Shown piece by piece: positions 21,613 through 31,507 of a stretch of 64,000 bases of DNA. The notes under the pieces are model-generated. The model was not told where the DNA came from. It did not search any database and was given only the letters and a program-made list of their open reading frames with translations. Each line of letters starts with the position of its first letter. Positions within the stretch are counted from its first letter, which is position 1. A program made the translations under genes and the position numbers. The stretch comes from Pyrobaculum sp. 3827-6 (GTDB taxonomy: Archaea; Thermoproteota; Thermoprotei; Thermoproteales; Thermoproteaceae), in the NCBI RefSeq assembly GCF_025641885.1, contig NZ_JAOTQN010000001.1:806001-870000 (forward strand), in the 5' to 3' direction.

Positions 21613-22164
21613 CTACTCACCCAAACCCCGCCTCAACACCCCCAGCGCTTCCTCAAGCTCCGAGCCCCATCTCACTCTGTCTTTTATTGCCTCGACCCTC
21701 GCCACAAGCCCCCTCAATAACAAGACCACGTCCCTCGCCGCCTCCTCTCTACTGCGGTACTTCGACAAGGCCATATCTGGATCAGGCCCGTGGTACTGGT
21801 AGTCGTGGAGATCTAGGGCCTTATCTGTCCCAAAGGAGAACCCAGCAAAGCCAACCTCCTCAAGCATCTGGGACAGAGCCTTCATACGGCCCGTGGGCAC
21901 CCGGGGCACCGCCGTCGACTCTAGCCACCTCCTCTCCTCCTCAGTCTTGGCAAGAGGTTTCAACTTGCCAAGTTCAAGCCTCAGCAGAGCCGCCGTGAGG
22001 GCTCTCCACGCCTGGAAGGCCTTGCCGGCGGCGTTCCTAACCAGGCCGCGGCGGAGGTACTCAAGAGCGAGGCTTGCCTCAACCAAAGCCTCAAGAAGAC
22101 GTGCCGAGATGTAGTCCTCAGCAGAGGGCTTGGGGAGGGGCCTCTCAAGAACCTCCACATCCAC
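21613..22164 (-). CDS. PaREP1-family protein (HEPN-like)
   Basis: 183-residue helical protein of the PaREP1/PaREP8 family, a multicopy family described from Pyrobaculum. Recognisable is the N-terminal pattern PSAEDYISARLLEALVEASLALEYLRRGL then RNAAGKAFQAWRALTAALLRLE. These proteins resemble HEPN-type helical bundles; their function is not established. GTG 22164 or GTG 22158 can serve as start; TATA-like ggtttaaaacc at 22176-22186 favours either. Confidence 0.85.
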   Translation of the reverse strand: MDVEVLERPLPKPSAEDYISARLLEALVEASLALEYLRRGLVRNAAGKAFQAWRALTAALLRLELGKLKPLAKTEEERRWLESTAVPRVPTGRMKALSQMLEEVGFAGFSFGTDKALDLHDYQYHGPDPDMALSKYRSREEAARDVVLLLRGLVARVEAIKDRVRWGSELEEALGVLRRGLGE

Positions 22165-22198
22165 GTACGTGGGGCAGGTTTAAAACCTTCTGCGGGCT

Positions 22199-22903
22199 TT
22201 AGGTTATTAGGACCACTTCTCTGTTGCACCACAGGCGGGGGAGCATCTCCCCCACCCCCCGCGACACGTACATCACAGCCTCTCCCCTCCTGTATATGCC
22301 CTGGGTGTATCCGTAGTAGCTGTTTGTAATAAGCGGGACGCCCCCGGGGAGGCAGAACTGACCCCCGTGGGTGTGGCCGGCGAGGTAGAGGCCCCCTACA
22401 GCCTGCTGGAAGGCGTCTGGCGAGTGGACGAGCACCACGTCGGCGTCTCTCACCGCGGGGTAGGTCCTCGGGTCCTCCCGCCAGTCTAGGCCGTGTACCC
22501 TCAGCGGCCCCACCTGCACCCAGTCGTCTCTAAGGACGTGCACCCCCGCCTCCTCCAGCGCCCTCAGCCCCTCCCCCAGCGGGACGCGCCGCCTATCCCA
22601 ATACTCGTGGTTGCCCAGCACCGCTATCTTCGGCCCCCTCAGCGGCGCCAGCGCCTCCACCACAGCCCACGCCCCAGGCGTGTTGCGGTCGTAGATGTCG
22701 CCGCCGATTAGAAGAACGTCGTACTCCGGCAACTCAAGCCCAGACACGCCGTGGATATGGAGGTCAGACACGAAGACAACTCGGCGCCCAAGGCCGAGGT
22801 CAAGCCGCCTCAGCTCCACACCCACAGAAGCCGCCCCCACAGCCCCCAGCAACCCAACCCCAACCACAGACCCCAGAAAAACCCTCCTATACACCCCAGC
22901 CAC
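22199..22903 (-). CDS. Membrane-anchored metallophosphoesterase
   Basis: Calcineurin-like phosphoesterase of the YaeI type, 234 residues. An N-terminal hydrophobic segment (about residues 8-28) anchors or exports it. Metal-binding blocks follow in order: FVSDLHIHG, IGGDIYDR, LGNHEYWD, VLVHSPDAF and AGHTHGGQ. YaeI relatives hydrolyse lipid or nucleotide phosphodiesters; substrate here unknown. GTG 22903 chosen from TATA-like ctttatatgt at 22929-22938 read on the minus strand; longer in-frame starts overlap the promoter. Confidence 0.88.
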   Translation of the reverse strand: MAGVYRRVFLGSVVGVGLLGAVGAASVGVELRRLDLGLGRRVVFVSDLHIHGVSGLELPEYDVLLIGGDIYDRNTPGAWAVVEALAPLRGPKIAVLGNHEYWDRRRVPLGEGLRALEEAGVHVLRDDWVQVGPLRVHGLDWREDPRTYPAVRDADVVLVHSPDAFQQAVGGLYLAGHTHGGQFCLPGGVPLITNSYYGYTQGIYRRGEAVMYVSRGVGEMLPRLWCNREVVLIT

Positions 22904-23037
22904 AAACCCCCACAATTTAAAAATTGTACATATAAAGTTCCCGGCAACAACACCACAACCCAAGCCCCACACAGCCACCAAAAACAGCCAACAAAGGGCC
23001 AGGGGCGGCCAGAACCCACAAGGCGGCGAGGAATATA

Positions 23038-23193
23038 CTATTCAACAACAGCGCCGCAGACGGCGCATTCAATGGACAAACCGGGGAAGGCCCTCCCCCG
23101 GCCGTAACAAGCTGAGGGGCGCTGGGCGCCCCGCAGCGTAAGAAAGCGGTGGCGATGGTTAGAGGAGACGTAATACAAGCGCTTCTGCTCCAT
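23038..23193 (-). CDS. Possible 51-residue protein with a CxxC end
   Basis: Frame starting MEQKRLYYVSSNHRHRF and ending with ECAVCGAVVE. The CxxC followed by G-x-V-V resembles half of a zinc ribbon; the other ligands could be the NHRH histidines. TATA-like tttttataaag (read on the minus strand, 23230-23240) sits about 40 bases upstream, leaving a short leader. Length and isolation keep confidence low. Confidence 0.35.
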   Translation of the reverse strand: MEQKRLYYVSSNHRHRFLTLRGAQRPSACYGRGRAFPGLSIECAVCGAVVE

Positions 23194-23254
23194 GAGTGTA
23201 GCAGTCGAGAAGGCTGGCGGGGCGCCCCACCCTTTATAAAAACTTGGCAACAAA

Positions 23255-23380
23255 GCGGAGATGTACGCATCTCCGCTCGACCTGCGGCACGGCTCCGGGG
23301 AGATGCGCCGCCTCTTCAGCCGAGAGGCCGCCACTTAGAAGTGGAGAGGGCCCTTGCGTGCGCCGCAGGTGCGGCGAATA
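23255..23380. other. Cluster of four strong hairpins
   Basis: AGCGGAGATG/CATCTCCGCT around a TACG loop (23255-23278), GCCTCT/AGAGGC (about 23310-23328), CCAC/GTGG around TTAGAA (about 23331-23344) and CGCCGC/GCGGCG around AGGT (23361-23376), plus a longer alternative GCATCTCC/GGAGATGC. TATA-like tttataaaa at 23233-23241 lies just upstream on the plus strand. This suits a structured RNA of about 130 bases; I recognise no family. Confidence 0.4.
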
Positions 23381-23828
23381 GACTCGCCTAAATGAATACG
23401 GTCCGCGTCGCGTCAATAACATCACTGGACGCGGCGCCGTACTGCACACATCTGCCGGATTCAAGACGCCGCCGCGAGCTAAGCAACCCGCCATTAACAC
23501 CACCCAGTCCACACGCCCCGCGCCACAGCCACCACCGTCTATACGGCGGCACACCGACGCGCAACTCTCCAAACCACCTCAACCACCACCAGAAGAACAA
23601 GCTACACAGCACCAAACACCTCCGAAGCTAAAACCGGTAAGGCCGAGCATAAGATAAAAATATGTAAAAATTCGAACATATGATCTGTACAGCCTATACA
23701 CCATTCGTGTTCTCAGCTAGTGTCTGGAGGGATGCCGCACCTCGGCGGGGTGGTATCTATGTTGGCCGCCCAATGGGAGGCACCTCTAGCTATACATACG
23801 CTGCGCAAAACACGCTTGTCGTGAGGCG
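23381..23828. other. Gene-free stretch
   Basis: I see no credible gene here. The first half is C/A-rich with a tryptophan-rich antisense frame (23388-23615) that has no promoter; the second half is A/T-richer and ends in TATA-like ctatacatac at 23792-23801, the promoter of the next gene. Confidence 0.6.
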
Positions 23829-24485
23829 ATGAAGCAGAGAAAGCACGTAGTTATTAAAATTCTTTCTATTCTCGCCCTTATATATCTCTCAATCTTCATA
23901 CCAGGGACTATATTGCTATATACCTTTACATCGTATTTTATACACGAATACGCGAAGTCAGACCCAGCCTCTATAATATGGCTGTATGATAAATCTAGTT
24001 ATGAACATGTAGCAGAGATACTTACACAACTGGGCTATAGGTTTGAGCCGTGGGACAACAAAACATTCGCCGGGACTCTTTTGATATTCGGCGACGTGAG
24101 ACCCGTCTATCCATATATCAAGGAGTACGCCTCCAGCCCCGTGGTGTATACATCAGCCTTTGACTGTATTATATGCCTGGGCGCCACTGTGCACAGCCTA
24201 GCAAATTCCCTACTGTTACTAGCCGTCTACAGCACAGCGCTCGCAGTGATATCAGCAGTAGCAGTTAGAAAAGGCGTTCTAAGCTGGCGGGGTGCGGCTC
24301 TAGCCAGCGCGGCGCCCCCTCTAGTCCTGTACCTATCCGAGGTGCTGTACATCTTAGCCACATCCTTTATTCTTCCACACGGCTCATTAGACTACAGAGG
24401 CGTTCTGCCATTCCTAACAGCACCATTTACGCCCATACTCATAGTCGCTCTCACTAAGTGGTCTTTAGCTAAATGGAGGCGCTGA
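23829..24485 (+). CDS. Hypothetical membrane protein
   Basis: 218 residues, unrecognised. A hydrophobic N-terminal segment (about 10-40), a soluble extracellular-looking loop of about 70 residues (residues 45-115), then three hydrophobic segments in the C-terminal half separated by a short basic VRKGVLSWRG. Base composition is lower in G+C than the neighbours, suggesting later acquisition. TATA-like ctatacatac is about 30 bases before the ATG. Confidence 0.65.
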   Translation: MKQRKHVVIKILSILALIYLSIFIPGTILLYTFTSYFIHEYAKSDPASIIWLYDKSSYEHVAEILTQLGYRFEPWDNKTFAGTLLIFGDVRPVYPYIKEYASSPVVYTSAFDCIICLGATVHSLANSLLLLAVYSTALAVISAVAVRKGVLSWRGAALASAAPPLVLYLSEVLYILATSFILPHGSLDYRGVLPFLTAPFTPILIVALTKWSLAKWRR

Positions 24486-24581
24486 CCTCACAAGCCCCGA
24501 GCTACGGGGCGCGGCGCCACGGGCAGTCTGGCGTAGAAACCCAACCCGGCGCTAACACTGAGAAAACACCCTCACAACCCC

Positions 24582-25301
24582 CTACTCAATAACAGCGCCG
24601 TAGACGGCGTCTATTCCCAGCTGGGCGGCTCTTTCCAGAGCTTCTTTGTCTATGTTTACTGCCACTATTATTAGGCGGTTTGCCTTTCTGCCGAGTATCT
24701 TCTCCACCGCCTCCGCCTTCTCGGCGAACCACTCCACATCCTCCAGCTCTGCATGCGACTTAACCTCCAAGAGGTACAACCCCCCGTCGTGTATGTAGAC
24801 GTCGACCTCGATGCGGGTCCCCGGCCTCATGAAGCGGCCGTCTACATCCGTGTAGACAAACTTCTCCACACGGCCAGGCTCAACCCCCCTCTTCTCCAAC
24901 GCATCCCGGTAAATTTCGAGAACCGTGCGCTCCAAATCCCGGCCCCACCTACGGCCTAGGGAGCCCATAGCCACCTTAAGCTCTGCGACAGCCTTGGTCA
25001 ACTCGTCAAGCCTCCTGCCGTGCTCCTCAACTCTCTTGGTCAGCTCAGCCAGAAGCCTGCCTTGTTCCTCTAGTCTCTTGCTGTGTTCTTCTAGTATTTT
25101 CCCGTGGGTCTCAAGCCTCTTGGCTAGTTCTGCTACTGTCTTGTTTAGTTCTTCTATTCTCTTGTTTGTTTCTTGGAATCCTGTTTTCATGTAGTCGGCG
25201 AGGGTTTTCACGGCGTCGGCCACCTCCCTAAGCTCATCAGACCTAGCCCTCCTAACAGCCCTCTCCACAACCTCCTCAAGCCTACCCCAGTCCAGACTCA
25301 C
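24582..25301 (-). CDS. Coiled-coil protein with PD-(D/E)XK nuclease-like domain (DUF3782-like)
   Basis: 239 residues. Residues 30-125 are a long heptad-repeat coiled coil built from repeats such as LAKRLETHGKILEEHSKRLE. The C-terminal domain carries the nuclease-like core EVDVYIHDGGLYLLEVKSHAE (D...E-x-K), matching the archaeal DUF3782 group often found in several copies. DNA cleavage is inferred from the fold only. GTG 25301 lies 24-26 bases after gttaaaaact (25319-25328) on this strand. Divergent from the TnpB-like gene. Confidence 0.8.
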   Translation of the reverse strand: MSLDWGRLEEVVERAVRRARSDELREVADAVKTLADYMKTGFQETNKRIEELNKTVAELAKRLETHGKILEEHSKRLEEQGRLLAELTKRVEEHGRRLDELTKAVAELKVAMGSLGRRWGRDLERTVLEIYRDALEKRGVEPGRVEKFVYTDVDGRFMRPGTRIEVDVYIHDGGLYLLEVKSHAELEDVEWFAEKAEAVEKILGRKANRLIIVAVNIDKEALERAAQLGIDAVYGAVIE

Positions 25302-25452
25302 GAAAACAGACGCCAGCTGTGTTAAAAACTTTTCCCCAGAGCCCCGTGGTGCTCTGCTAGTAGTTGCTTATAAATGGTATGCAAAAGTTCTAGAAAACTC
25401 ACATATACAACCAATACATACAGAGCATAAAACGTAGGGAGATACGCGGTGT

Positions 25453-26457
25453 ATGGGTTGCTTCGCCGCGCTCGGCATAGACGTCAACAAGAGCTACGTG
25501 GCGTTTAGCTGGGTCACCAACGACCCCGACCTAGCCGCCTCGGCGCTGGGCGCCTGGGGGGCGCACCCCATCACCAGCTGGCTGTTTGAGGAGCACTTGG
25601 CGTTTAAGACCCCGCTCAAGCTGTCGGAGGCTGTGTCTGTGCCAGAGGCCCACGTGGAGGCCGTGCTCATGTGGCTACCCGGTAGGCGCAACAACCGCCA
25701 GAAGAGGTGGAGGAGGATGGCCACCGCAAAGCTGTTCGCCACCCTCACCCCGTGGCTCAGATACCTGGCAGACCAAGGTACCCCCGCGGTCATAGGCGTG
25801 GAGGACCTCAGAGGCATGGCCAGGAGGCGCGGCATATCCGAGGTGGAGTACGCCAAGATATGGAAAAAGATAATAGGCGCCTTCGGCACCCCCCTCGGAG
25901 AAGGCCCAGGATACCGGGCGTATATCGGCAGAGGACGCTCCATCGTAATAGCCCTAGACCCCAGAGGCACCTCAGCCACATGCGCCCTATGCGCCGCCCA
26001 GGGCAGAACCACCCCCGTCGAGAAGCGCGGCGACCGCACCGTCCACTGCCCCATCCACGGCCCCATAAACCGCGACATAAACGCCGCCATAAACATCGCC
26101 ATAAAAGCCGTGAGGATATACGCGGGGGACACGCCGGGGGGCGCCCGCGGGGGACAACAACCCCAGCCGCGGACGCCTTCCGCGGGTCTCCCGAATGAAG
26201 AGAAAGGCGGCCACCGACCGCGCGGAGATGAAACCGCAGAAACCTGGCAGGCGTCACAGACTACCGTCGCCCCACTGACGGCGCCCCCCGGCGCCCTAGA
26301 TGCGTATATGGAGGAGGTATTTAAACATTTCGCCGGTGCTGAGGGACGCTGTCTACCGCTGGAAGGAGGCCAGGCGCAGGTTGAAGGGGGGGAGGAGGGC
26401 GGGGCCCTGAATAAGGGCGCGCGCACGCCCCCTTTTTCCCGCCATGTGGGGCCATAA
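25453..26457 (+). CDS. TnpB-like RuvC protein lacking the N-terminal half
   Basis: Homologue of the IS200/IS605 accessory nuclease TnpB. The chain begins almost at RuvC-I (GIDVNKS, D10), then the basic bridge GRRNNRQKRWRRM, RuvC-II (IGVEDLRGM, E117), the zinc finger C177-C180...C199-x2-H202, and RuvC-III (NRDINAAINI, D208). All three catalytic acids are kept. The roughly 150-residue RNA/DNA-recognition part that normally precedes RuvC-I is absent, and TATA-like gcataaaacg at 25427-25436 sits upstream of this ATG. A 110-residue low-complexity tail follows. No TnpA is present. Confidence 0.8.
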   Translation: MGCFAALGIDVNKSYVAFSWVTNDPDLAASALGAWGAHPITSWLFEEHLAFKTPLKLSEAVSVPEAHVEAVLMWLPGRRNNRQKRWRRMATAKLFATLTPWLRYLADQGTPAVIGVEDLRGMARRRGISEVEYAKIWKKIIGAFGTPLGEGPGYRAYIGRGRSIVIALDPRGTSATCALCAAQGRTTPVEKRGDRTVHCPIHGPINRDINAAINIAIKAVRIYAGDTPGGARGGQQPQPRTPSAGLPNEEKGGHRPRGDETAETWQASQTTVAPLTAPPGALDAYMEEVFKHFAGAEGRCLPLEGGQAQVEGGEEGGALNKGARTPPFSRHVGP

Positions 26458-27718
26458 GCTAGCCGCGAACACCCGGGAGGAGTTCCTCGCCGCACTCCTC
26501 TCTCTGAAGTTCTTCGGCCTCGACACGGTGAGGGGCCTCGTCCTCGTGGAGAAGCCCCGCGGGCCCCCCTTCGTGCCTGTGGGGAGGGTTGGCTGGGGGA
26601 AGGTCTGCACCTCCCCGCCCCCTCTCCCAGCCGCCGCGTGGAGGCAGGGGCGGGGCGAGAGGCCCGTCACGTACAGGTCTGCGCTCGGCCGCGGGGTCTA
26701 CTGGTTCGAGCAACTGGGCATCTTCAGGAGGGGCAGGGAGTGGGCAGTGGCGGCGGGCTGCCGGGGGAGGCCTCCCTTCTTCGGCTGGGAGAAGGTCGCC
26801 GGGTGGGCCGTGGCCGAGTTGCTCGCCGAGGCCCCGTACTGGAGGTTCTGGCCCCCGCTGGCCGCCCCCGTCGAGGGCCACCTGCTGATCGCGGGCGGTA
26901 GCGGGGCGGGCAAGACCACCTTCCTCAAGAAGTACCTCTCCCAGGTCCCCAGGTGGTACGTCATAGACCTCACGGAGGAGGGCGAATACGCCGGGCTCGC
27001 CGAGACGGTGGAGGGGTCGGTGGACCTAGCCGCCATGGACCCCGACGACCAGGCGTTGCTCTACAGCCTGGGCATAGCCGCCGCCGTGGGGGCCAGGGAG
27101 CCCGCCGTGTCCGCTGTGCAGCTGGGCGCCTTGAGGCTCGTCGCCAGGCGCGGCGCGGGGCTGGCGGAGTTCCTAAAAGAGCTGAGGGAGGCCCCCGACA
27201 TACCCCAGCTCACTAGAGAGGTCCTGTACACAAAGCTGGCCGCCGCCTGCGTAGAGCACGACGGGGGTTGCAGGCCCCACCCAGCCCTGGGGCGCGACGC
27301 CGAGATACCCCCGCCCCCCGCCGTCATTAGGATAAGGCCCGACAACCCGCTGGCCGCCGCAATAGCCGCCCACGGCACCATCCTCAAAATACTGAGAAGG
27401 GCCAAGGGGCCGCTGGTCCTCGCCGTCGACGAGTACCACAAAATAGCCCCCCGCCTCCCCGTCGAGGACCCGGTGGAGAAGGCCATAAGGGAGGGCAGGC
27501 ACCGCGGCGTCTACATAGCCATCGCCACACAGAACCCCCAAGACCTCAAACAGAGCCTCCTCTCCATAATCGGCAACTACGTCTACTTCCACCTCGCGCC
27601 CCCAGCCGCCGACCTCGCCGCCCAGACCCTAAACGTCCCCACCTGGGCCGTCACCACCCTCAAGCCGGGGCAGTACCTAGCCAGGACCCGCCATGGCCCC
27701 GCAGCCGGCGCTCTATAG
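26444..27718 (+). CDS. HerA/VirB4-type P-loop ATPase
   Basis: 424 residues. Walker A GGSGAGKT at 151-158, Walker B LVLAVDEYHK at about 324-332 and sensor-like IAIATQNPQ at 358-365 place it with the HerA/FtsK/VirB4 DNA-pumping ATPases. The 145-residue N-terminal domain is unfamiliar. Its ATG lies inside the end of the TnpB-like frame (14-base overlap) and its end overlaps the next gene by 26 bases, so the three probably form one unit. The usual partner nuclease NurA is absent nearby. It may move DNA for an integrated plasmid or virus, or in defence. Confidence 0.8.
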   Translation: MWGHKLAANTREEFLAALLSLKFFGLDTVRGLVLVEKPRGPPFVPVGRVGWGKVCTSPPPLPAAAWRQGRGERPVTYRSALGRGVYWFEQLGIFRRGREWAVAAGCRGRPPFFGWEKVAGWAVAELLAEAPYWRFWPPLAAPVEGHLLIAGGSGAGKTTFLKKYLSQVPRWYVIDLTEEGEYAGLAETVEGSVDLAAMDPDDQALLYSLGIAAAVGAREPAVSAVQLGALRLVARRGAGLAEFLKELREAPDIPQLTREVLYTKLAAACVEHDGGCRPHPALGRDAEIPPPPAVIRIRPDNPLAAAIAAHGTILKILRRAKGPLVLAVDEYHKIAPRLPVEDPVEKAIREGRHRGVYIAIATQNPQDLKQSLLSIIGNYVYFHLAPPAADLAAQTLNVPTWAVTTLKPGQYLARTRHGPAAGAL

Positions 27719-28334
27719 GATAGTTACGCCCGAGGGCTGGGCCGTCCTCCCCCCGGGAGCCGAGGCCACGCTCTGGCCCCCAGTCGACCTCCCCAAGGCG
27801 AGGGCCCTAGACACCGCGGGCCACAGAGCCCTCATCCCCATATCAATAACCGTCGTGAAGATCTTGGCCGAGCCCAGCAGAGGCATGTACGAACTCAGAG
27901 CGCGGAGGCGCTACCAAATCGCCGCCGCCAGGACAGACAGAGCCTCCCAGCCCCCCAGAGGCGTCTCCCACGAACTCAGGATATACTGCGGAGGCGGGCC
28001 CTGCGACCTCTCCCCCCTCTACATGCTGGCCCTCCCCCGCGGAGCCACCGCAGTCGTCCGCGGGTACATAGACGCGCAGCCCACAGCCAGGTGGGCCCCC
28101 GCCCCGTCCCCCGAAGGAGACCCAAAAGCCGGCCTAGACATACTAGCCGACCCCCGCAGAGCCCAGCTCCTAATAACACTCGTATACGACAAGTCCAGGT
28201 CCACGAGGCAGAAGGCCTGCGCCCACGAGCTCTGGACCCCTTGCCCAGGCGAGGCGCCGGGGCGCTACACCACAGCCGCCCTCCACGCCCTCAGACTAAT
28301 AGCACACTTCCTCCCAAACACATACGAGGAGTAA
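27693..28334 (+). CDS. Unknown protein, third gene of the TnpB/HerA unit
   Basis: 213 residues, not recognised. Proline- and alanine-rich with no hydrophobic segment; beta-rich middle (LIPISITVVKILAEPS, HELRIYCGGGPCDL) and cysteines at YCGGGPC and ACAHELWTPC that could bind metal. It overlaps the ATPase gene by 26 bases and ends 21 bases before the tRNA-Gly CCA end. Function may be tied to the ATPase. Confidence 0.65.
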   Translation: MAPQPALYRIVTPEGWAVLPPGAEATLWPPVDLPKARALDTAGHRALIPISITVVKILAEPSRGMYELRARRRYQIAAARTDRASQPPRGVSHELRIYCGGGPCDLSPLYMLALPRGATAVVRGYIDAQPTARWAPAPSPEGDPKAGLDILADPRRAQLLITLVYDKSRSTRQKACAHELWTPCPGEAPGRYTTAALHALRLIAHFLPNTYEE

Positions 28335-28354
28335 AAGGAGGAAGAGACCGGTGG

Positions 28355-28445
28355 TGCGGCGGCCGGGATTTGAACCCGGGATCAACGGCTTTCCACGGAC
28401 TACCGTGGCAGGCCGCCATCCTAAACCAGGCTAGACTACCGCCGC
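28355..28445 (-). tRNA. tRNA-Gly (GCC) with a 15-base intron
   Basis: Acceptor GCGGCGG/CCGCCGC, anticodon stem GCGGC/GCCGT, loop C-T-GCC-A then intron then A, T-arm CCGGG-TTCAAAT-CCCGG, discriminator A, encoded CCA at 28352-28354. Removing 28391-28405 (15 bases) at position 37/38 restores a normal loop; the intron forms CCACGG/CCGTGG with the anticodon region. The 3' end points toward the TnpB/HerA unit, the side where tRNA-integrating elements insert. Confidence 0.92.
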
Positions 28446-28614: not shown

Positions 28615-30177
28615 ATGGTTGATATGTGTAAGGGTTTTGAGGATTGTGTGGCTTTTTATGTAGAGGCTGCTGGTGAGGTGCGTCATGTTGGTAAGTTTCT
28701 ATGGAGTCCCGCTGATGTGCGTTGGGGCGCGATGAGGAATATTAAGCCTGGGGGTTGTGTGATTCACTATTTGACTGAGGAGGCTGGGTTGAAGGCTTTT
28801 GTGGGTGTGTCGAGGGTTAGTGAAGCGGCGAGGAGGGTTAGTAAGGAGGAGAGCTTGAGGCTTCTGAGTGATGTAAATCTTGAATACTATAGGAGGTGGC
28901 TTGATAACTTTGGCGAGTTTTATTTTGTTCCTCTGCGTGGCTTTACCGAGTTTAGAAGGCCTCTGAAACTTGAAGAGGTGTTGAGGGTATTGGGGGTGGC
29001 GCACCCGGTGTTGATTCCGCAGAACTATCTTAAGGAGGTACCTGAGCAGTATGGTCGCAGAATTATTGAGATGGGGTGTGGTGGGGATGGCGAGATTAGT
29101 GGAGGGAGTGTGGAGCTGGAGAGGTTTGTTGCCTTGCTTATGTTGGCGGGGAAGAATGTGTTGTTGGTGGGGGCGCCTGGGGTGGGGAAGACTGAGCTGG
29201 CGTTGAGGGCGGCTGGGTTTTTCACCTCGTGTGAGCCGGAGGTCGAGGTTGGCCGCGAGGATTTGTCTTATGACGATTTGGTGGTTAAGTACGTTGTTTT
29301 GGAGGGGGGTCGGCTGGAGCGTAGGCTTGGTAGCCTGGCGCGGGCTGTCGCGCGTAGTTGGGATTCTATACGCCAGGGCGGGGGGCCTTGCCACTTTGTT
29401 TTTGACGAAATTAATAGGGCTAATGTGGACGTGGCTCTTGGGCGTATATTCACCGCGTTGGACGTGGAGCACCGGGCCCGTGTCAAGGTTTTTGATGGCT
29501 TGGTGGATCCTCCGTACATTCCGCTTTCGTTTAGGGTGTTTGCTACGATGAATGTGATTGATAGGGGGCAGTTGTTTAGGCTGAGTTTCGCGTTGCTGAG
29601 GCGGTTTGCCTATGTGTATATGACTCCGCCTCATATTACTCCAAAGCCTCAGCTGAATAAGAATAGCCTCCCTACTTCACAACGGGATTTGTTTAGGCCC
29701 TATGCGGAGAGGGCTCTTCGCTACCTTGCTATGAGGGGTGTGTTGGAGGAGGATTTGGCGACTCTTGTCGTGCTGGGTTTGCCGGGGGTGGAGGAACTGT
29801 TGGGTGAGGCTGATAGGTTGGGGTTACTGGGGGTTCTCGAGTGGGCGCTGGGAGTGGCTGATAGGCTGGGGCTTGAGGTTGGGCCTTCGATGGCGTTGGA
29901 CGTATTAAGGGTGGTGGCGGTGCACGCGGCGGCTCCCAGCTCTCTGAGGTTGAGCGACGATGTGTTTGTGGATTATGTCGTCTCGTCGCTTATTTTGCCC
30001 TACTTCGCCGCGGTGGCGCCGAGGGTTCGGCAGAAGGCCGTGCTGTCGGCGAGGCAGCCTAGGGAGGTCAACGAGGTGAGGGATATGCGGGAGAAGATAG
30101 GTGAGTGGCTCGGGGCGCAATCGCTTTCTATTCGTGTAATGGAGGGTCTTCTCCATGAGCTCCCCGTCGAGGTGTGA
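28615..30177 (+). CDS. mcrB: EVE-domain McrB-type AAA+ GTPase (type IV restriction)
   Basis: 520 residues. Residues 1-120 resemble an EVE/YTH-like modified-base reader (W30, GGCVIHYLTEEAGLKAFVGVSRV, YFVPLRGF). The motor follows: Walker A GAPGVGKT at 186-193, Walker B FVFDEINRAN at 262-270, and the McrB signature ATMNVIDRGQ near 310-319 with an RR pair at 329-330. McrB rings use GTP and drive the McrC nuclease on modified nucleic acid. TATA-like gtatttaaag at 28587-28596 lies 26 bases before the ATG. Overlaps mcrC by 23 bases. Codons are T-rich compared with core genes. Confidence 0.88.
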   Translation: MVDMCKGFEDCVAFYVEAAGEVRHVGKFLWSPADVRWGAMRNIKPGGCVIHYLTEEAGLKAFVGVSRVSEAARRVSKEESLRLLSDVNLEYYRRWLDNFGEFYFVPLRGFTEFRRPLKLEEVLRVLGVAHPVLIPQNYLKEVPEQYGRRIIEMGCGGDGEISGGSVELERFVALLMLAGKNVLLVGAPGVGKTELALRAAGFFTSCEPEVEVGREDLSYDDLVVKYVVLEGGRLERRLGSLARAVARSWDSIRQGGGPCHFVFDEINRANVDVALGRIFTALDVEHRARVKVFDGLVDPPYIPLSFRVFATMNVIDRGQLFRLSFALLRRFAYVYMTPPHITPKPQLNKNSLPTSQRDLFRPYAERALRYLAMRGVLEEDLATLVVLGLPGVEELLGEADRLGLLGVLEWALGVADRLGLEVGPSMALDVLRVVAVHAAAPSSLRLSDDVFVDYVVSSLILPYFAAVAPRVRQKAVLSARQPREVNEVRDMREKIGEWLGAQSLSIRVMEGLLHELPVEV

Positions 30178-31507
30178 GTGGAGGGAGGGTGAGGTCTTCT
30201 CGCTTAGGGATAAGGCTAGGGAGTGTGGAGTGTCGGAGGACGTTTTGAAACGTGTTGTGTTGGATCTCAGGGCGGCTTTGGGGGAGTATGCGAGGTTGCC
30301 TGGGGGTATTAGGGTGGATACTCCCCGTCCCGATGTCAGGGGGTCCAGGGGCTTCGGGGGGTTCTGGGTGGGGGTTTTCGACGTTGCGGTGGACGGTGGG
30401 GGGTTGGTGAGGGTTGTGGTTCGTCCTAGGGTGAGGCGATACGGCGCTATGATTGAGAAGGTGGGTAGTGTTCTCGGCGGCTTGGCTTGGCTGTTCCCGG
30501 TGGCGGCTGGGTTCTACGCCTCTGTGCCCAGGCTGGCGGTGTATGTCGACGCGGTGCGGCGTCTGTACGAGGCCTACCTATTAGCTTTTAGGGAGCATAA
30601 GTTTTTGACTAGGCGGGTTGTTGGTGCCGGGGGGTCTGTGGGGGTTGACGAGGGTGGGTTTTACGTGTTTAGGAGGCAGAGGGTGAGAAACGTAGCGTTG
30701 GCTAATTCCGTGGTGTTGGCGTTGAGGAGGGTCGTGGAGGCTGTGGAGGAGGCGAGGGGTCTGGCGGAGGATCTCCCGGGGGATGTTAAGGGGGTTGTGG
30801 AGGTGTATCTATCGGCGTTGGAGCGGGGGGCGGCGGCGGTGCTCGAGGAGCTTGGCGACTTGACTGGCTGGGTCGACGGGGAGGAGCTGGGGCCTTATTG
30901 GCACCTCGCGGCTAGGGCGGTGGCGGGCTCTCTGTGGGGCCGTGAGGCGGAGGGTGTGGGGAGGTACGTCATGATCCCCAGCACGAAGCTTTACGAGCTT
31001 TATGTCTACTCGCTGTTTGTGGAGAGGCTTAGGGGGTTTAGGGCTTGTGGAGATAGTAGGGGGATCGCCGGCGGCGTGTGCATCGAGGGATCGGCGTCGT
31101 CGGTCGACGGCGCATCTTGTGACGCATTTGCACGGCTTTACTTCAACGTTGCGCCTAGCTCGCGGCTGGTTAGAAGACTGTCTCGTAGAAGGCCCCGGCC
31201 CGATACGGCTGTAGAGGCTGCTGGGTCAATAGCCGTGGTTGAGGCTAAGTATAGGTTTCTGGAGAGTGGGCGTCTTCCTCTACCCGACTCGCTTAGGTTA
31301 GTGGCGTATCTGGCTGACGTTGCAAGGAACGGCCGTCTTAAGGCCGTGTTGGTGTCTCTGTCTAGGCCCCAGGACTTGACAAAGCCTCTGAGTGCCAAGA
31401 TCGGCGATGGTGTCGAGGCTAGCGTGTACTACGCTGGGGTTAACCCTGACGGCGACGTTGAGGAGGAGGTGAGGAGGGCTATTGCCTTTGCTATCTGCGA
31501 GCCGTAG
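30155..31507 (+). CDS. mcrC: McrC-type nuclease subunit
   Basis: 450 residues. The C-terminal part has a PD-(D/E)XK core: D350 in RPRPDTAV and E363-x-K365 in VVEAKY, with a following helix and VLVSLSRPQ. The N-terminal part is the beta-rich McrC/LlaJI-like domain that contacts the McrB ring; central helices contain REHKFLTRRV and IPSTKLYELYVYSLFVERL, the latter typical of McrC. Together with the upstream gene it forms a type IV restriction system. The stop overlaps the convergent gene by 79 bases. Confidence 0.85.
   Translation: MSSPSRCEWREGEVFSLRDKARECGVSEDVLKRVVLDLRAALGEYARLPGGIRVDTPRPDVRGSRGFGGFWVGVFDVAVDGGGLVRVVVRPRVRRYGAMIEKVGSVLGGLAWLFPVAAGFYASVPRLAVYVDAVRRLYEAYLLAFREHKFLTRRVVGAGGSVGVDEGGFYVFRRQRVRNVALANSVVLALRRVVEAVEEARGLAEDLPGDVKGVVEVYLSALERGAAAVLEELGDLTGWVDGEELGPYWHLAARAVAGSLWGREAEGVGRYVMIPSTKLYELYVYSLFVERLRGFRACGDSRGIAGGVCIEGSASSVDGASCDAFARLYFNVAPSSRLVRRLSRRRPRPDTAVEAAGSIAVVEAKYRFLESGRLPLPDSLRLVAYLADVARNGRLKAVLVSLSRPQDLTKPLSAKIGDGVEASVYYAGVNPDGDVEEEVRRAIAFAICEP

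Follow-up and report, generated by a model that had tools for sequence, protein, structure and literature searches.

Cas12 descends from TnpB, and how small a protein can be and still serve as an RNA-guided nuclease is an open question. In TldR, a group of TnpB-like, nuclease-dead repressors, and in CreTA, a tRNA-linked module, short or partly matched guides are directed at host genes, a tRNA being the vulnerable target in CreTA. More generally, tRNA genes are common integration sites. In archaea, omega RNAs that overlap tnpB are known (PMC12558985), and HerA-like ATPases are frequent in dark-matter islands (PMC4158269). Searches covering part of the literature found neither a RuvC-only TnpB nor a tRNA-matching omega RNA.

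The locus described here lies in a 64,000-nt stretch of the heat-loving archaeon Pyrobaculum sp. 3827-6 (the window; its genome is G000). Three further genomes of the genus (G004, G006, and G002) and a distant relative (G026) are referred to throughout. As the initial annotation had proposed, the ORFs comprise three overlapping genes for a TnpB-like protein, an ATPase, and a 213-aa protein; all are on the + strand, and their frames overlap by 14 nt (first and second) and 26 nt (second and third):

25453-26457, + strand: RuvC-only TnpB-like ORF, 334 aa (from the ORF list)
26444-27718, + strand: HerA/FtsK-type ATPase, 424 aa (profile matches, selection)
27693-28334, + strand: third protein, 213 aa (confident model, without a fold match)

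The same three genes were looked for elsewhere and found, in order, in G004 (93-97% identity to the window), G006 (60-72%), and G002. The linkage of the TnpB-like gene to the ATPase and third genes, which had been singled out for checking, is therefore conserved in four species, in differing contexts, all of one genus.

Like the TnpB/OMEGA systems of IS200/IS605 and IS607, this locus combines a RuvC triad and a zinc ribbon with a putative structured RNA over the 3' end of the gene, and the RuvC-only copies of G026 share their element ends with a copy that carries a full-length TnpB. Unlike them, it has no N-terminal WED/REC half and contains one very long hairpin; unlike IS200/IS605, it is accompanied by no Y1 transposase TnpA in the genomes searched. 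The TnpB/OMEGA guide is flanking DNA past the right end, whereas the corresponding segment in G026 is internal and antisense to the adjacent RNA gene. The RuvC triad is intact, in contrast to TldR, and there is no CRISPR effector, in contrast to CreTA. The HerA/FtsK-type ATPase beside an RNase H-fold nuclease resembles NurA-HerA and other HerA-containing defence systems. However, the nuclease is TnpB-derived, the neighbouring proteins give no NurA match, and the nuclease-ATPase linkage is restricted to one genus, unlike HerA-type defence systems. With respect to MADS, an eight-gene set, the only match among seven neighbouring proteins scanned is Mad8-like. The explanation to which we give slightly better than even chances is that of a TnpB derivative, RNA-guided and parked at a tRNA gene, with the ATPase operon of a defence island next to it.

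A RuvC-only lineage of TnpB-like proteins

The first ORF matches the Pfam family Cas12f1-like_TNB at 7e-08. Its coding part and the region upstream are as follows:

25368..25398, + strand: TATA-like promoter region of the TnpB-like gene, TTATAAAT and AAAAGTTCTAG (from the sequence)
25453..26118, + strand: selected coding part, residues 1-222, with D10, E117, D208, and the zinc ribbon (codon positions, alignment, dN/dS)

The (A/G)AAACTT(N)TA part of the promoter region is kept in G004, G006, and G002. RuvC-I lies at residue 10 of the window protein. D10, E117, and D208 are invariant across 13 aligned members, as are the zinc ligands C177 and C199, which bears out what the initial annotation had said of the triad and the ligands. 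Its report of a missing N-terminal half also held, none being present upstream in the homologues examined. Similarly, the reported lack of TnpA extends to the four genomes searched with the Y1_Tnp profile (G000, G002, G006, and G026), which gave no match while the controls gave a signal. Relaxed selection, listed there among the points that would refute the proposal, was not seen: dN/dS over residues 1-222 is 0.15-0.16, and purifying selection acts on all three genes of the locus (about 0.16 overall).

RuvC-only relatives, taken in class and phylum searches as short TnpBs with RuvC-I at most ~100 residues from the start, occupy at least 15 loci in Thermoproteales, and none was found outside this order at E 1e-12 among 398 genomes of the phylum. 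The searches added five copies in G026 and one each in G025, G029, G030, G032, G036, G042, G024, and G040. In a tree with seven full-length TnpBs of the same order, a small sample with some long branches, a branch with 97/94 support separates the 13 aligned RuvC-only sequences from the full-length ones. Residues 1-225 were modelled by AlphaFold with a pLDDT of 80, and a fold search with these residues finds Cas12 proteins best, weakly (E about 0.03). The TnpB-like gene is a member of a selected RuvC-only lineage and not a stump. Among individual copies, both TnpB genes of G002 are broken, and a second copy in G000 ends at residue 60.

The 3' cassette and its match to RNA genes

Past residue 222, constraint switches from protein to nucleotides. 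Between G000 and G006, substitutions at codon positions 1/2/3 number 57/36/110 over residues 1-222 and 21/18/17 over residues 223-299, a distribution that rules out the tail as a protein domain; its DNA is strongly conserved, broken G002 copies included. The initial annotation had left hardly any room for a 3' guide RNA of the usual kind. This was wrong, as the last ~110 codons are without protein constraint and contain conserved hairpins. The features of this region and of the nearby tRNA gene are:

26119..26457, + strand: remaining ORF, an open frame without protein constraint (codon-position counts, residues 223-299)
26119..26200, + strand: hairpin 1, ~30 bp, candidate omega-RNA-like scaffold, followed by GAATGAAG (structure, conservation)
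26222..26237, + strand: hairpin 2, GCGG..CCGC (structure, covariation)
26245..26270, + strand: guide-like segment against mature tRNA-Gly(GCC), partly decayed in the window (complementarity)
26310..26325, + strand: conserved promoter-like GGAGGAGGTATTTAAA upstream of the ATPase (kept in all five complete tails of the genus)
28352..28445, - strand: tRNA-Gly(GCC) gene with an intron, convergent with the module and matched by the guide-like segment

Structure potential and nucleotide conservation point to a structured RNA in the 3' region, the expression of which is predicted. The folding z-score of hairpin 1 is -2.5 in the GC-rich DNA of the window and -6.8 in G006, and the motif CGAATGAAG or GTGATGA lies between the two hairpins. 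Covariation among five sequences of the genus is modest, with three pairs altered on both sides; most shuffles and every slid control score lower. Long hairpins of unrelated sequence occupy the same place in G026, G029/G030/G042, and G036 (z -6.7 to -7.6), and an equally long hairpin is absent at that place from seven full-length TnpBs of relatives. G024 and G040 have no 3' hairpin and carry a 5' hairpin instead; in their RuvC-only genes (L136 and L135), a covarying hairpin spans the start codon. No copies of hairpin 1 were found in the genus besides the known loci, and only tRNA and 5S exceeded the threshold in a search for known RNA families.

The guide-like segment is complementary to the anticodon arm of tRNA-Gly(GCC), with one base skipped, and then to its 5' end. 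From the end of hairpin 2 it consists of TGGCAGG, one skipped base, CG or CGCCA, a gap over the D arm, and the 5' end. The tails of G006 and G002 contain the tRNA-Gly 5' end in antisense, as an exact match of 17-18 nt; this 17-mer is confined in each genome to the three tRNA-Gly genes, plus the tail in G006 and G002. A match by chance was ruled out, the reversed-pattern 17-mer control being 0. In a comparison of 13 tRNAs, drawn from an incomplete Pyrobaculum set, the GCC isoacceptor is the best match in G000 (p 0.003), G006, and both G002 copies (0/1000 shuffles). The matching segment is lost in G004, and none rises above shuffles in G030, for which the tRNA set is incomplete. GCC is the nearest tRNA-Gly in all four genomes of the genus; 18 bp separate it from the third gene in G000 and G004, and about 11 kb (G006) and 13 kb (G002) from the module.

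An att-type duplication of the tRNA 3' end was also considered and rejected, with no second copy in the window (≤3 mismatches) and nothing longer than a 12-nt match in the G006 and G002 neighbourhoods. As a separate observation, some tRNA-Gly genes (L156, L164) carry inserts at odd places, in the D loop in G002 and in the T arm in G000.

The elements of G026 provide an independent test. All five ORF-bearing copies have the order hairpin 1, GAATGATGAAG, hairpin 2 ending in GGAA, segment, and end palindrome CCCACGTGGG, and each faces the 3' end of a convergent tRNA or 5S gene about 20-265 bp away. In a rank test of antisense matches against all 46 tRNAs plus 5S, the adjacent RNA gene came first of 47 in five out of five cases; one copy matches 5S rRNA. 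Two more copies, one of them ORF-less, were located through the palindrome beside other tRNAs, and both match their tRNA. At two further G026 tRNAs with a palindrome nearby, hairpin 2 is absent and no clear match is seen. A block-skip-block model fits five of the seven copies exactly, with one skipped base. The tRNA-Phe segment fits the spliced form only; the scripted model skips two bases here, a number that falls to one for an anticodon loop of the standard seven bases. The seventh copy needs one mismatch in a hand alignment. For the first six segments, no other RNA reaches an equal score. The base skipped in the target usually comes after 4-6 nt in G026 and after 7 in Pyrobaculum. Because the model was picked after the sequences had been viewed, its exact form is descriptive; the rank test is independent of it. 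An eighth copy with the same ends contains a frameshifted full-length TnpB, without the hairpin motifs and without a nearby tRNA.

The G026 elements (L103, L105, L102, L104, L244, L246) also have in common a nearly invariant ~200-nt noncoding 5' block, in which a repeated GATGAGGTAGGGGAGGA motif lies within two stems. This block is absent from Pyrobaculum.

Could the locus be a decayed TnpB element beside an unrelated operon, its tRNA-like segment being captured flanking DNA? The broken G002 copies, the G000 copy cut at residue 60, and the imperfect tRNA match are compatible with this, as is the general frequency of integration at tRNA genes. However, neither the low dN/dS of the coding part nor its invariant triad is that of a decaying gene, and the architecture is shared by the Pyrobaculum and G026 lineages despite about 25% protein identity. 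In addition, the segment lies inside the element and is antisense to mostly the 5' half of the tRNA, whereas integrases duplicate the 3' end. We regard decay as distinctly unlikely.

Because the layout recurs next to tRNA genes in a genome as distant as G026, the locus may represent an RNA-guided system not described before. In the mechanism that we propose, the lineage has lost the N-terminal (WED/REC) half of TnpB and kept the complete RuvC triad. The cassette would be transcribed as an omega-RNA-like guide whose large hairpin partly substitutes for the missing protein lobe. With this guide, the RuvC domain may bind or nick tRNA loci, thereby keeping the element there or placing it there. 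The ATPase and 213-aa operon would belong to the same tRNA-linked defence island without being obligate for the nuclease. The skipped base suggests that guide and target form a duplex with a fixed bulge, or that self-cleavage is avoided in this way. Several findings count against this mechanism: the segment is partly decayed in the window and lost in G004, both G002 TnpBs are broken, G030 yields no tRNA match, G024 and G040 have a 5' in place of a 3' hairpin, the z-score of the window hairpin is modest, and the tRNA gene is 11-13 kb distant in G006 and G002. More tentative, and in our judgement somewhat doubtful, is the full form of this proposal, in which a lone RuvC domain of ~220 residues, with a hairpin-rich RNA replacing the recognition lobe and a one-base-skip guide, would bring the element to tRNA and 5S rRNA genes or hold it there. 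If true, it would provide a natural lower size limit for RNA-guided nucleases and a new way of target choice, and the settling of mobile elements in tRNA genes would become directly testable.

The same segments might act as antisense RNA on the tRNA itself instead of guiding a nuclease to DNA, with the cassette serving as a regulator or a toxin-like addiction RNA and the RuvC protein processing or restraining the cassette RNA. Pairing with tRNA and the existence of an ORF-less copy agree with this idea, and the match of the tRNA-Phe segment to the spliced form only favours an RNA target or an intron-free ancestor. It leaves unexplained, however, the position of each element beside its matched gene, and the copy that matches 5S rRNA also argues against it; this alternative appears quite unlikely.

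The ATPase, the 213-aa protein, and their neighbourhood

The second ORF matches AAA_22 over the cut-off, with sub-threshold matches to HerA_C and FtsK, and the PADLOC Mad8 profile matches it at 6.5e-12. In the tail, the guide-like segment is followed by the promoter-like GGAGGTATTTAAA upstream of the ATPase, and TATTTAAA at 26318-26325 is a candidate ATPase promoter element. The dN/dS is 0.11-0.16 for the ATPase and 0.16-0.28 for the third gene. The G004 ATPase gene carries a single additional C within a C run, possibly a sequencing error; its G002 counterpart has a stop at codon 86. The 213-aa protein has no family match. Its identification by fold was attempted and gave no PDB or viral match; a viral origin of the ATPase and third protein was likewise rejected, with no relative among viral contigs.

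Among 300 genomes of the phylum, the close ATPase family is confined to the genus and G011. ATPase relatives without TnpB occur near genes that, judged by their sequence, are ParA- and TadA-like, in G005, together with a distant relative of the third protein, and in G011, alone. Conversely, RuvC-only TnpBs without the ATPase are found in at least eight genomes. The elements of G005 (L049, L047, L045) and G011 (L046) carry ParA-, TadA-, and HerA-like ATPases and a relative of the window ATPase, and those of G005 additionally carry TadC- and pilin-like genes. In three other Pyrobaculum genomes (L093, L095, L096), relatives of the 213-aa protein are found on their own, next to a gene for a HAD hydrolase.

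These data bear on the core idea of the initial annotation, a nuclease-translocase machine in which the RuvC nuclease, a DNA-pumping ATPase, and the third protein form one defence complex. Part of it stands, namely a RuvC nuclease without the N-terminal half, under selection, linked to the ATPase and third gene in four species, and set in a defence neighbourhood. The common order and overlapping frames in differing contexts, the equal purifying selection on the three genes, and the defence-like neighbours speak for such a complex. As the core idea, however, it gave way, because the ATPase has its own promoter-like element, its relatives occur without TnpB (in G005 and G011), and other genera carry RuvC-only TnpBs that lack the ATPase. 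In addition, different members of the trio are broken in G004 and in G002. The machine is possible, but we consider it unlikely and do not favour it over the tRNA-parked TnpB derivative, beside which the ATPase and 213-aa genes would form a separately promoted operon, most likely travelling with the element in a defence island.

The genes adjoining the module resemble defence genes. Upstream of the trio in G004 and G006 are a C5-methylase, an HhH-GPD glycosylase, and a ~340-aa protein; the context in G002, with a DEAD helicase, an MZB protein, and a PLD protein, recalls DISARM. Downstream in G000 are a McrB-like AAA protein and a 450-aa partner, of which G004 has a distant version. G015, which belongs to another genus, has the McrB-like pair, the tRNA-Gly, and the end of the third gene, all ~90% identical to the window, and lacks TnpB and the ATPase. 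This level of identity across genera, over the pair and the end of the third gene, points to recent transfer. The pair lies at 28615-31507 in the window and at 9558-12465 in L097, from another genus (~90% identical).

Two side observations concern the left flank. Part of it, at 21613-25636, recurs in rearranged form ~430 kb away in G000 (L044, 9384-11649); the duplicated part includes a HEPN-like 183-aa gene, a phosphoesterase, a PD-(D/E)XK gene, and the first 60 codons of the TnpB-like gene. Within the flank, 24582-25301 (- strand) is a DUF3782/PDDEXK_10 coiled-coil nuclease-like gene, of which several copies exist in several genera.
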